A stretch of DNA of 64,000 nucleotides from Extensimonas perlucida (GTDB lineage Bacteria; Pseudomonadota; Gammaproteobacteria; Burkholderiales; Burkholderiaceae_C): contig NZ_VMYE01000003.1 in NCBI RefSeq assembly GCF_007655255.1, positions 124,001-188,000 on the forward strand, in the 5' to 3' direction. The notes beneath the pieces are model-generated. The model had not been told where the DNA came from. It made no database searches and saw only the letters and a program-made list of their open reading frames with translations. Positions 32,955 through 35,070 of the stretch are shown here, piece by piece. A program made the translations under genes and the position numbers. Every line of letters begins with the position of its first letter. Within the stretch, counting starts at the first letter, position 1.

Positions 32955-33257
32955 CGAAGGACTCCTCAAAAATACCTGAAAAAACGCGATAGAGCCCCGA
33001 AACGCAAGCCGCCTATTCCGACGAAATACCTGTGCGCCAACTCACGGATCATCGCAAACACAAATGCAAGAAAACCTCGCGGCGTCATTATGACTGACAA
33101 GTCGGACGAAAACGCAAGAAAAATCATCGCTGCAGGCCGCGAAATCGTGGTTTTGGTGCTGCACGCAGCGCCAAACCCCTTTTTTATGCCCGCCGCGCCC
33201 GGGCCCGCGCGCCGGTGCGCGCAAGGCATGGTGCCGCAGGGCTTTTGGTATATTTGC
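32955..33257. other. Intergenic region between the RRM gene and the metX leader
   Basis: About 300 bases holding divergent promoters. A TATATT -10-like hexamer at 33249-33254 would start transcription close to 33261, exactly where the metX riboswitch begins. A 59-codon frame (33090-33269) ends inside the riboswitch and lacks a ribosome-binding site, so I do not call it a gene. I see nothing else. Confidence 0.5.
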
Positions 33258-33316
33258 CGCCAGCGCTGATTTGCCCCAGCTTGCGAGCGCTCTACAAATG
33301 CTGCTAAAGACTCGTC
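33258..33316 (+). promoter_or_regulatory. SAM-II (SAM-alpha) type riboswitch aptamer
   Basis: The order AGCGCTGATTTG, GCGAGCGCT, ACAAATG and GCTAAAG with short spacings reproduces the SAM-II consensus (GCGCTGATTT, GCAAGCGC, AAATG, GCTAAA). P1 is formed by AGCGCT (33262-33267) and AGCGCT (33286-33291). The loop CAGC (33277-33280) can pair with GCTG (33300-33303) to give the pseudoknot. It lies directly ahead of metX, a standard target of SAM control. S-adenosylmethionine binding should reduce metX-metW expression. Confidence 0.85.
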
Positions 33317-33327
33317 CGACCTTCCCG

Positions 33328-33361
33328 ACCCGGCCCTGTTTTTAGCGCAGCCGGGTTTTTT
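33328..33361 (+). terminator. Intrinsic terminator in the metX leader
   Basis: ACCCGGC (33328-33334) pairs with GCCGGGT (33350-33356), followed by six T residues ending one base before the metX ATG. It is likely the expression platform of the riboswitch or a basal attenuator. Its position leaves no room for an ordinary Shine-Dalgarno sequence. Confidence 0.75.
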
Positions 33362-34489
33362 ATGCCGTTCATCGCCACGCCCCAGACCATGCATTTCCCG
33401 GAGGCGCTGCCCTTGCAAAGCGGCGCGTCCATCCGCGACTACCACCTCGCCTACGAGACCTACGGCACGCTTGATGCCGCGCGCTCCAACGCCGTGCTGG
33501 TGTGCCACGCGCTCAACGCCTCGCACCACGTCGCGGGCGTGTACGAGGGGCAGCCGCACAGCGAAGGCTGGTGGGACAACATGGTCGGGCCGGGCAAGCC
33601 CGTCGATACGAACCGCTTTTTCGTGATCGGCGTGAACAACCTGGGCTCGTGCTTCGGCTCCACCGGCCCCATGCACCGCAACCCCGACACGGGCCGCATC
33701 TACGGCGCGGACTTTCCCGTGGTCACCGTGGAGGACTGGGTGAACGCGCAGGCGCGGCTGCTCGATCGTTTGGGCATTGAACGGCTCGCGGCCGTGCTCG
33801 GCGGCAGTCTGGGCGGCATGCAGGCGCTGTCGTGGTCGCTGCAATACCCCGAGCGCGTGCGTCACGCCGTGGTGGTGGCGAGCGCGCCCAATCTCACCGC
33901 AGAAAACATCGCTTTCAACGAGGTCGCGCGCCGCGCCATCGTCACCGACCCGGACTTTCACGGAGGCCACTTTTACCAATACGGCGTGGTGCCCAAGCGC
34001 GGCCTGCGCATCGCGCGCATGATCGGCCACATCACCTACCTCTCGGACGACGTGATGAACGCCAAGTTCGGGCGCCAGCTGCGCGACCGGCTCGAGCCCA
34101 AATACAGCACGCAGGACATAGAGTTTCAAATCGAGAGCTACCTGCGCCACCAGGCCGACAAGTTCAGCGAATACTTCGACGCCAACACCTATTTGCTGAT
34201 CACGCGCGCGCTCGACTACTTCGACCCGGCGCGCCGCCACGGCGGCAACCTGAGCCTGGCGCTCGCGCCCGCGACGGCCAGGTTTTTGCTCGTGAGCTTC
34301 AAGACCGACTGGCGCTTTGCCCCTGCGCGCAGCCGCGAGATCGTCAAGGCTCTGCTCGACAACAAGCGCAGCCTGAGCTATGCCGAGATCGACGCGCCCC
34401 ACGGACATGATGCCTTTTTGCTCGATGACGCCCGCTACATGAGCGTGATGCGCTCTTATTTCGAGAGTATCGCGAAGGAGCTCGCATGA
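33362..34489 (+). CDS. metX: Homoserine O-acyltransferase MetX
   Basis: A 375-residue alpha/beta-hydrolase-fold acyltransferase for the first committed step of methionine synthesis. The nucleophile is Ser149 in [13 protein letters not shown]; the acid is in [10 protein letters not shown] and the His in [13 protein letters not shown]. The N-terminal block [15 protein letters not shown] and [20 protein letters not shown] are typical. The annotated ATG directly follows a T-run, so initiation is unusual. Family members from betaproteobacteria use either succinyl- or acetyl-CoA; I cannot tell which here. It overlaps metW by 4 bp. Confidence 0.96.
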
Positions 34490-35070
34490 GCGCGCAAGCC
34501 ACCATGGAAGCGATCGCCCGCCTGGTGCCACAGGGCGCGCGCGTGCTCGACCTGGGCTGCGGCGGCGGCGCGTTGCTGTCGTACCTGCAGCGTGAGCGCG
34601 GCTGCAGCGGCTACGGCGTAGAGATCGCCGACGCCAACGTGCTCGCCTGCGTGCAGCGCGGCGTCGATGTGATCCAGCTCAACCTCGACGAAGGGCTGTC
34701 GATGTTCGGCGACCGCTCTTTCGACGTGGTGCTGCAGATCGACACCTTGCAGCACCTGCGCAACGCCGAGGTCATGCTGCGCGAAACCGCGCGCGTGGGG
34801 CGCACGGGCATCGTCGCCTTCCCCAACTTTGCGCACTGGCCCAACCGCCTGTCGGTGCTGCGCGGGCGCATGCCCGTGACGCGCCACCTGCCCTACCAGT
34901 GGTACGACACGCCCAACATTCGCGTGGGCACCTACGCCGACTTCGAGGTGCTCGCGCGCAAGAACCGCCTGCGCATCATCGACGCCTTCGGCCTGCAGGA
35001 CGGGCGCATCGTGCGCTTTCTGCCCAATGCGCGTGCGGGCACGGCGGTGTTCCACTTCGAGGGTGCGTAG
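34486..35070 (+). CDS. metW: Methionine biosynthesis protein MetW
   Basis: A 194-residue methyltransferase-fold protein. The cofactor-like loop [12 protein letters not shown] and the family-specific [20 protein letters not shown] and [17 protein letters not shown] are clear. MetW is required with MetX for homoserine acylation in several proteobacteria. Its ATG overlaps the metX stop (ATGA), so both are under the same SAM-II leader. Confidence 0.96.

Follow-up and report, generated by a model that had tools for sequence, protein, structure and literature searches.

Organisation of the metX locus

In the window analysed here (the whole stretch of DNA, 64 kb in length), the methionine gene metX lies directly behind a leader that comprises a promoter element, an aptamer with the sequence blocks of the SAM-II class and an intrinsic terminator. 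This arrangement, which had been picked out in a preliminary description of the same DNA, is real, and the observation is confirmed. The features are as follows:

33246-33254, + strand: extended -10 promoter element TGG TATATT (TATATT at 33249-33254), by sequence
33262-33311, + strand: SAM-II aptamer, by sequence and covariance models
33262-33291, + strand: P1 hairpin, AGCGCU (33262-33267) with AGCGCU (33286-33291), 6 bp, by RF00521 and R1 alignments
33268-33273, + strand: L1, GAUUUG, inside the P1 hairpin loop, by sequence
33280-33284, + strand: 5' strand of P2, CUUGC, inside the P1 hairpin loop, by sequence
33303-33309, + strand: GCUAAAG, 3' strand of P2 and putative SAM-binding core, in a pseudoknot with CUUGC 33280-33284
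33303-33311, + strand: 5' strand of the antiterminator, GCUAAAGAC, joined by 9 bp to 33338-33346 in the fold of lowest energy
33338-33346, + strand: 3' strand of the antiterminator, GUUUUUAGC, in the terminator loop, by complementarity and the TTT[AG]GC motif
33327-33357 (with U-tract to 33361), + strand: intrinsic terminator hairpin with a 15-nt loop, by sequence and script
33327-33334 and 33350-33357, + strand: terminator arms GACCCGGC and GCCGGGUU, by sequence
33356-33361, + strand: terminator U-tract, six T, abutting the ATG at 33362-33364 with zero bases between, by sequence
33362-34489, + strand: metX, homoserine O-succinyltransferase, 375 aa (ORF; NF047916 at 648.4 bits, cut-off 560)
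34486-35070, + strand: metW (ORF; TIGR02081 at 229.3 bits, cut-off 189.5)

The start of metW overlaps the end of metX by 4 nt, and the two genes are probably one operon. That metX is the target, as proposed in the preliminary description, is borne out by the NF047916 match, and its guess of a beta-proteobacterium was equally right: the nearest named relative by MetX is an Extensimonas sp. (98% identical), and the window groups with Extensimonas on a MetX tree (99/95). The terminator hairpin alone amounts to -15.1 kcal/mol; it was not listed by a simple terminator scan because its 15-nt loop exceeds that scan's loop limit of 8, and a simple promoter scan did not list the metX promoter. A further hairpin, of 10 bp and followed by TTTTTT, lies 5' of the metX promoter (33152-33185, + strand) and was found, by the criteria used, in the window only (0/79 metX-selected loci checked).

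An aptamer of the SAM-II class

All three SAM-II blocks (GAUUUG, CUUGC and GCUAAAG) are present, and in order, in the alignments to RF00521 and to a model of our own, R1, and a methionine gene lies downstream, as in SAM-II riboswitches (metX at 33362). No Rfam family reached its cut-off anywhere in the 64-kb window; with relaxed limits, RF00521 aligned over its full model length with 33253-33325 at 27.6 bits (genome-wide E 4.8e-4), the cut-off of 36 bits being an Rfam search threshold and not a structural feature. The preliminary description, which named SAM-II by sequence, had regarded a score below this threshold as evidence against the class; the score is formally below it (27.6 vs 36), but the assignment is upheld by R1, which gave 65.5 bits on the window (E 2.1e-18) and found one strong copy in the window's own genome. 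R1 was built from 54 rows, leaving out both the window and its nearest relative, L032 (one of the 55 references chosen, L185, was dropped since its parsed stretch was too short). Chance resemblance to SAM-II is ruled out by this score and by the synteny with metX. Because of the R1 score and the family-wide matches described below, the low RF00521 score is taken to reflect a beta-proteobacterial lineage subtype of SAM-II.

In the alignment of these rows (A1), five pairs of P1 are formed in 270/270 cells, with little variation; the window carries a U-A pair (33267-33286) where most relatives have C-G. GCTAAA is invariant in the 54 rows, which were parsed by a pattern demanding [GA]CTAAA. The P2 strands are complementary in the window (33280-33284 and 33303-33309) and nearly invariant in the beta-proteobacterial rows, which therefore offer no covariation evidence for P2; in the metA RNA of A. 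tumefaciens, mutants have demonstrated that P2 forms and that SAM binding depends on it (PMC1273637). In the RF00521 alignment, the window is gapped by three bases on each of two sides that carry the consensus GGCC, a region that is probably P2a, and these gaps are consistent with a P2a that may have been lost or much shortened. By our own count P2a has 2 bp in the window vs 1.5 for shuffled tails, in a register too narrow for alpha-proteobacterial members. P2a is not required of SAM-II, because, although it has 5 bp in 60% of members, it has only 2 bp in the crystallised metX RNA (PMC6061858). The SAM contacts described in the numbering of another SAM-II RNA (U10 and U11 of L1, U21/U22, U46 and A47) can be carried over to bases of the window by motif only. 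Folded in full, the leader shows no stability beyond that of its shuffles (z +0.57).

Spread among relatives

The SAM-II-like metX leader is general in the window's family and not unusual, a point that was absent from the preliminary description. RF00521 matches 235/299 genomes of the family, as the search tool delimits it, at E <=0.1, with 69/299 above the cut-off, as against 2/14 control genomes at E 0.1 (B. subtilis and L. lactis), none of them above the cut-off; at the order level it matches 92/200 genomes (E 0.01) and at the phylum level 58/299 (E 0.001), with 0/14 controls in each case. R1 at E 0.01 matches 276/298 family genomes and 135/141 genera, although some of the weak matches may be the metK element discussed below, which has the core in common with it. 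Two sets of loci were assembled: (i) 80 picked by MetX similarity alone, in which the aptamer was parsed in 79 (the miss being L080), and (ii) 88 family loci picked by RF00521 (the 30 best plus one for each of 58 further genera), in which it was parsed in 84 (misses L152, L158, L162 and L169). Its position is conserved, with metX directly 3' of the aptamer in 81 of these 84 (exceptions L028, L132 and L144).

So is the promoter. TATAN[T/G] occurs within 45 nt 5' of the aptamer in 130/163 loci vs 4/984 control windows, and CATAAT was seen by eye in 13 of the remaining 33 loci. The gap from TATAN[T/G] to GCGC is 6-11 nt in 125 of the 130 loci and 8 nt in the window, a placement that agrees with the promoters reported a few nucleotides 5' of P1 in SAM-II leaders (Corbino et al., PMC1273637). 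The suggestion in the preliminary description that TATATT would start transcription at the first base of P1 fits this spacing, the extended -10 being expected to start it at P1 or within 1-2 nt of it.

Some loci depart from the common layout. Eight (L069, L071, L073, L078, L094, L096, L103 and L110) have an extra hairpin (e.g. CGGAACCCTGGAGTTCCG) between P1 and GCTAAA, and two of them (L069 and L071) carry AGCTGAA in the terminator loop, complementary to TTCAGCT, that is, a shifted antiterminator. In L024, a SAM-II aptamer is followed by an ATG 6 nt after GCTAAA and no terminator was found, which looks like a layout for direct occlusion of translation.

Relation to described RNA elements

The window shares with SAM-II (RF00521 SAM_alpha; the metA motif of Corbino et al., 2005, PMC1273637) P1, the three blocks and the P2 strands, as well as a promoter a few nt before P1, a terminator between P2 and the ORF and a methionine gene downstream. 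It differs from RF00521 members in its lower score, in the gapped GGCC sides and in its antiterminator, made of GCUAAAGAC and the terminator loop. SAM-II with terminators in beta-proteobacteria is already in print (PMC2258182). SAM-V has a pseudoknot fold and SAM site in common with SAM-II, but, unlike the window, it is translational and comes from marine alpha-proteobacteria and Bacteroidetes (PMC6061858). Alpha-proteobacterial SAM-II with a terminator (S. meliloti metZ, PMC9373788; locus L205) likewise has the aptamer followed by the terminator, whereas in L205, unlike in the window, the strand after GCUAAA matches the 5' arm of the terminator.

A second precedent is the 'metXZ' RNA element of beta-proteobacteria, for which Leyn et al. 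(2014, PMC4239095) published a consensus of six regions; in the open-access literature searched, 'metXZ' appears together with riboswitch only in that paper. Gene, taxa (10/11 Comamonadaceae genomes in their table), single copy and a two-pairing pseudoknot followed by a terminator are alike, and their description of a conserved beta-proteobacterial metX/metZ leader with pseudoknot and terminator applies to the element present in 79/80 metX-selected loci. Because gene, taxa, pseudoknot and terminator fit, the two are probably the same RNA, a likeness drawn from the text of their description. The readings differ in that Leyn et al. set metXZ apart from SAM_alpha and guess at an antiterminator in which their regions 3 and 4 pair with a strand of the terminator stem. 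A separately named orphan element would thereby join a riboswitch class whose ligand and structure are known, and SAM control of methionine synthesis would then reach most members of this beta-proteobacterial family.

Pairing between the aptamer and the terminator loop

In the minimum-energy fold of the window, GCUAAAGAC (33303-33311), which begins with the GCUAAAG of P2, is paired with the loop strand GUUUUUAGC (33338-33346). Antiterminator and terminator share the loop and therefore cannot both be complete. The motif at the heart of this complementarity, TTT[AG]GC, lies in or next to the terminator loop in 82/156 loci (those with a script-found terminator, window included) vs 20/2339 equal-length upstream control windows; the other 74/156 have no exact motif. 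When the 70 nt after the aptamer are counted (unparsed: L080, L152, L162, L169 and L207), the motif is found in 65/80 of the window plus metX-selected loci, a mostly Comamonadaceae set (controls 22/400), in 21/85 family matches, L144, which is not before metX, included (controls 11/425), and in 8/30 of the best order matches outside the family (controls 2/150), two of which (L173 and L174) have it 45 nt away. It is found in 0/29 parsed best phylum matches, which are alpha-type (controls 3/145).

Duplex energies were compared in two groups. For 69 distinct Comamonadaceae-like strand pairs, the mean is -11.4 vs -6.3 kcal/mol with shuffled loops, and 70% are at p<=0.05; for the remaining 56 distinct pairs, the figures are -10.0 vs -6.9 kcal/mol and 38%. 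In the window itself, whose strands have the same letters as those of L032, 7% of 60 shuffles do as well (p 0.07).

The loop pairing covaries, with compensatory changes. The base immediately 3' of GCUAAA is paired with the one immediately 5' of TTT[AG]GC in 81/82 rows (shuffled mean 74.5, 0/5000 as high), the pair types being G-U in 60, G-C in 13, A-U in 5, U-A in 2, C-G in 1 and G-G in 1. Over 64 distinct rows (94 in all), +1 is paired in 57 (shuffled 49.3, 0/2000 as high), +2 in 41 (shuffled 34.0, 6/2000 as high) and +3 in 50 (shuffled 34.3, 0/2000 as high), which sum to 148 paired cells (shuffled 117.6, 0/2000 as high) vs 49, 68, 106 and 124 in four slid registers. Because the terminator loop is T-rich, the +1 count alone is no mark of register (+1 reaches 59 in two slid registers, and +2 reaches 55 at slide +2); it is +3 (50 vs 10-18 slid) and the sum that single out the register. 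These shuffles ignore relatedness, and repeated origin on a tree therefore outweighs the counts: on a tree of partial MetX (81 tips, 90 columns, 29/78 inner branches open), the A-U form requires 5 changes, C-G 2 and U-A 1, with 3/81 tips unpaired. In both the register test and the tree, the motif scored was whichever TTT[AG]GC came first 3' of the aptamer, in some rows one that lies outside the loop. No clear pairing excess was seen in the 64 distinct rows at -1 to -3 or at +4, and covariation lent no support to an extension of the pairing 5' of GCUAAA (33299-33301 with 33347-33349).

In the window, the antiterminator fold (-26.7 kcal/mol) and the terminator fold (-25.9 kcal/mol) are near equal, and in growing transcripts the antiterminator is the best fold from the point at which the loop strand is made. 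In 68/77 motif rows, the balance favours the terminator fold (by 4.2 kcal/mol on average across all 77), and a loop antiterminator therefore needs a kinetic, co-transcriptional ordering.

A model for the control of metX

The reading that we favour, at a probability of roughly 0.8, is that the leader is a SAM-II riboswitch that turns metX (and metW) off by transcription termination, by way of an antiterminator formed with the terminator loop. Transcription would start from the extended -10, at P1 or 1-2 nt before it. When SAM is scarce, the P2 pseudoknot would be loose and its 3' strand GCUAAAGAC (33303-33311) free to pair with GUUUUUAGC (33338-33346) before the second terminator arm is made, and this 9-bp antiterminator would keep the terminator from closing, so that metX is read. 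With SAM bound, P2 would hold the GCUAAAGAC strand against CUUGC and leave the terminator loop free, and the hairpin of GACCCGGC and GCCGGGUU, together with the six U, would stop transcription immediately 5' of the AUG and yield an RNA of about 100 nt (in S. meliloti, the leader RNA is about 100 nt as well; PMC9373788). The aptamer blocks and their conserved position, the promoter spacing, the terminator, the complementarity and the covariation of the antiterminator are shown by the results above; SAM binding, switching, termination with its size and efficiency, and the order of folding we infer. The off sign is that proposed for the class by Corbino et al. (PMC1273637). The preliminary description already had the aptamer and the terminator, and to these the antiterminator is now added.

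The aptamer kind itself is known, and what seems new is the pairing of the SAM-contacting strand with the terminator loop as an expression platform; such a loop-directed SAM-II antiterminator was not found described in the running text of the open-access papers searched. Coupling of aptamer to terminator is poorly documented for SAM-II, and the S. meliloti study describes the effects of SAM-II on gene expression as unstudied before it (PMC9373788). If the strand that holds the ligand is also the antiterminator strand, the coupling would be direct and could be tested by one compensatory pair outside the conserved blocks, such as C33311-G33338, which lies outside those that bind SAM.

The terminator and the start codon

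The preliminary description had also drawn attention to a terminator that touches a start codon devoid of a Shine-Dalgarno (SD) core, and this is accurate: the T-run extends to 33361, the ATG begins at 33362 and there is no GGAG, AGGA or GAGG at -20 to -5. It is doubtful, but possible, that the hairpin exerts dual control, that is, that it terminates transcription and in addition hides the start region on read-through RNA, so that SAM would also lower initiation. The stem ends 4 nt before the AUG, and the sole SD-like sequence, a GGG 6 nt before the metX ATG, is inside it; the stem and the start are likewise no more than 12 nt apart in 55/80 loci of the metX set, the window included, and just 8 of these 55 have an SD core. 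Both control modes exist in the SAM-II class, since in S. meliloti one SAM-II acts on translation (metA) and another is predicted to act on termination (metZ) (PMC9373788). The terminated RNA would end before the AUG, and the hairpin could therefore block ribosomes only on read-through RNA.

Against dual control, 25/80 starts of the metX set are more than 12 nt away, so that only part of the clade has terminator and start in contact; SD cores are equally scarce among these distant starts (3/25). Over all loci, the start is within 12 nt of the stem in 68/154, with an SD core in 9/68, and the core is also uncommon with more distant starts (20/86), so that its absence is no mark of contact; taking as the start the first in-frame ATG 3' of the stem, as was done here, biases the distances downwards. 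Several Acidovorax-type loci (L033, L034, L038, L044, L045, L048, L059 and L076) place the metX start about 100 nt beyond the terminator, and the contact is therefore not general.

Other antiterminators and other ligands

It is improbable that the terminator forms by default, or is opposed by some other antiterminator (for instance the linker with the 5' arm), and that the TTTAGC of the loop is inherited and plays no role. Pairings of this sort do occur: of the 73 rows that lack the loop motif, 51 have a linker that matches the terminator 5' arm more strongly than shuffled sequence does, and the alpha-type L205 pairs CAGGCCGG with CCGGCCTG; the greater stability of the terminator in most motif rows would also suit a default terminator. 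In motif rows, however, the linker beats shuffled in only 19/83 (mean -5.3 vs -6.6 kcal/mol), and the loop pairing covaries, its pair types having changed several times on the MetX tree. A 5'-arm antiterminator was rejected for the window, motif-row linker pairing being no better than shuffled. Since linker-to-5'-arm pairing is found mainly where the loop motif is absent, two wirings appear to coexist in the lineage, one with 5'-arm antiterminators and one with the loop antiterminator that we propose for metX in the window.

That the leader merely resembles SAM-II and senses another ligand, as the RF00521 score below cut-off and the separate metXZ naming would allow (the text of Leyn et al. 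places SAM_alpha only in Rhizobiales and Rhodobacterales and calls the beta-proteobacterial element novel; PMC4239095), is very unlikely, given that GAUUUG, CUUGC and GCUAAAG are all retained, that the 69 family genomes noted above exceed that cut-off and that SAM-II had already been placed in beta-proteobacteria by Barrick and Breaker (PMC2258182).

A related element ahead of metK

When the genome that contains the window was searched with R1, a second but weak match (20.9 bits, E 0.008) came up directly 5' of metK, a gene that, in the text of Leyn et al., is under no known methionine regulator in beta-proteobacteria (PMC4239095). The feature lies outside the window:

G000:C4:84898-84959, - strand: SAM-II-like metK leader element, by R1 match (loci L232 and L235)

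MetK was found in 115/120 genomes searched, and the element is present in all of the 30 best, which were taken as loci (L235-L264, own genome included). Its pattern is TCGCYGRGUUA...ACUUGC..GGGCGA...GCUAAAGCGUUCGCC: P1, CUUGC and GCUAAAG are kept, and GAGUUA replaces the SAM-contacting GAUUUG. On locus L232, RF00521 scores 19.3 bits, and no Rfam family reached its cut-off on the three metK loci scanned. In an alignment of 20 short-insert loci (17 distinct), 14 pairs, among them those of P2 and of a P2a formed by GARC and GUUC, are intact in 99.6% of 238 cells. The outer pair of P1 (G-C in 9, A-U in 7, unpaired in 1 of the 17) is the only one changed on both sides, and 408/500 shuffles also show one such pair. 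A model of this element, R2, matches 114/200 order genomes and 6/150 phylum genomes (3 of the 6 in the window's own family), SAM-II cross-matches included.

In 26/30 loci, CGUUCGCC is complementary to the metK start, and the two are paired in the minimum-energy folds of the four metK leaders folded. The GCGUUCGCC strand could pair either in the pseudoknot or with the metK start codon, so that binding of a ligand would turn metK on. Freeing of the metK start by a ligand would be an unusual sign for SAM, L1 is altered and a changed ligand is possible; a spermidine-sensing variant of SAM-I before metK of Oceanobacillus offers a precedent (PMC10853860). Only tentatively, then, would we suggest that SAM-II in Burkholderiales has split into two related switches wired oppositely, with metX turned off and metK turned on, the latter perhaps by a ligand that is no longer SAM.

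At three loci, a canonical SAM-II and a second SAM-II-like element stand in tandem, about 60-105 nt apart: L230 (5721-5508, minus strand, in G135, a genome of the same genus), L270 and L273. The 874 nt of L144 that surround the L230 pair gave no MetX match. Of the two elements in L270, the first has a terminator with TTTTAGC in its loop, and the second belongs to the metK type.
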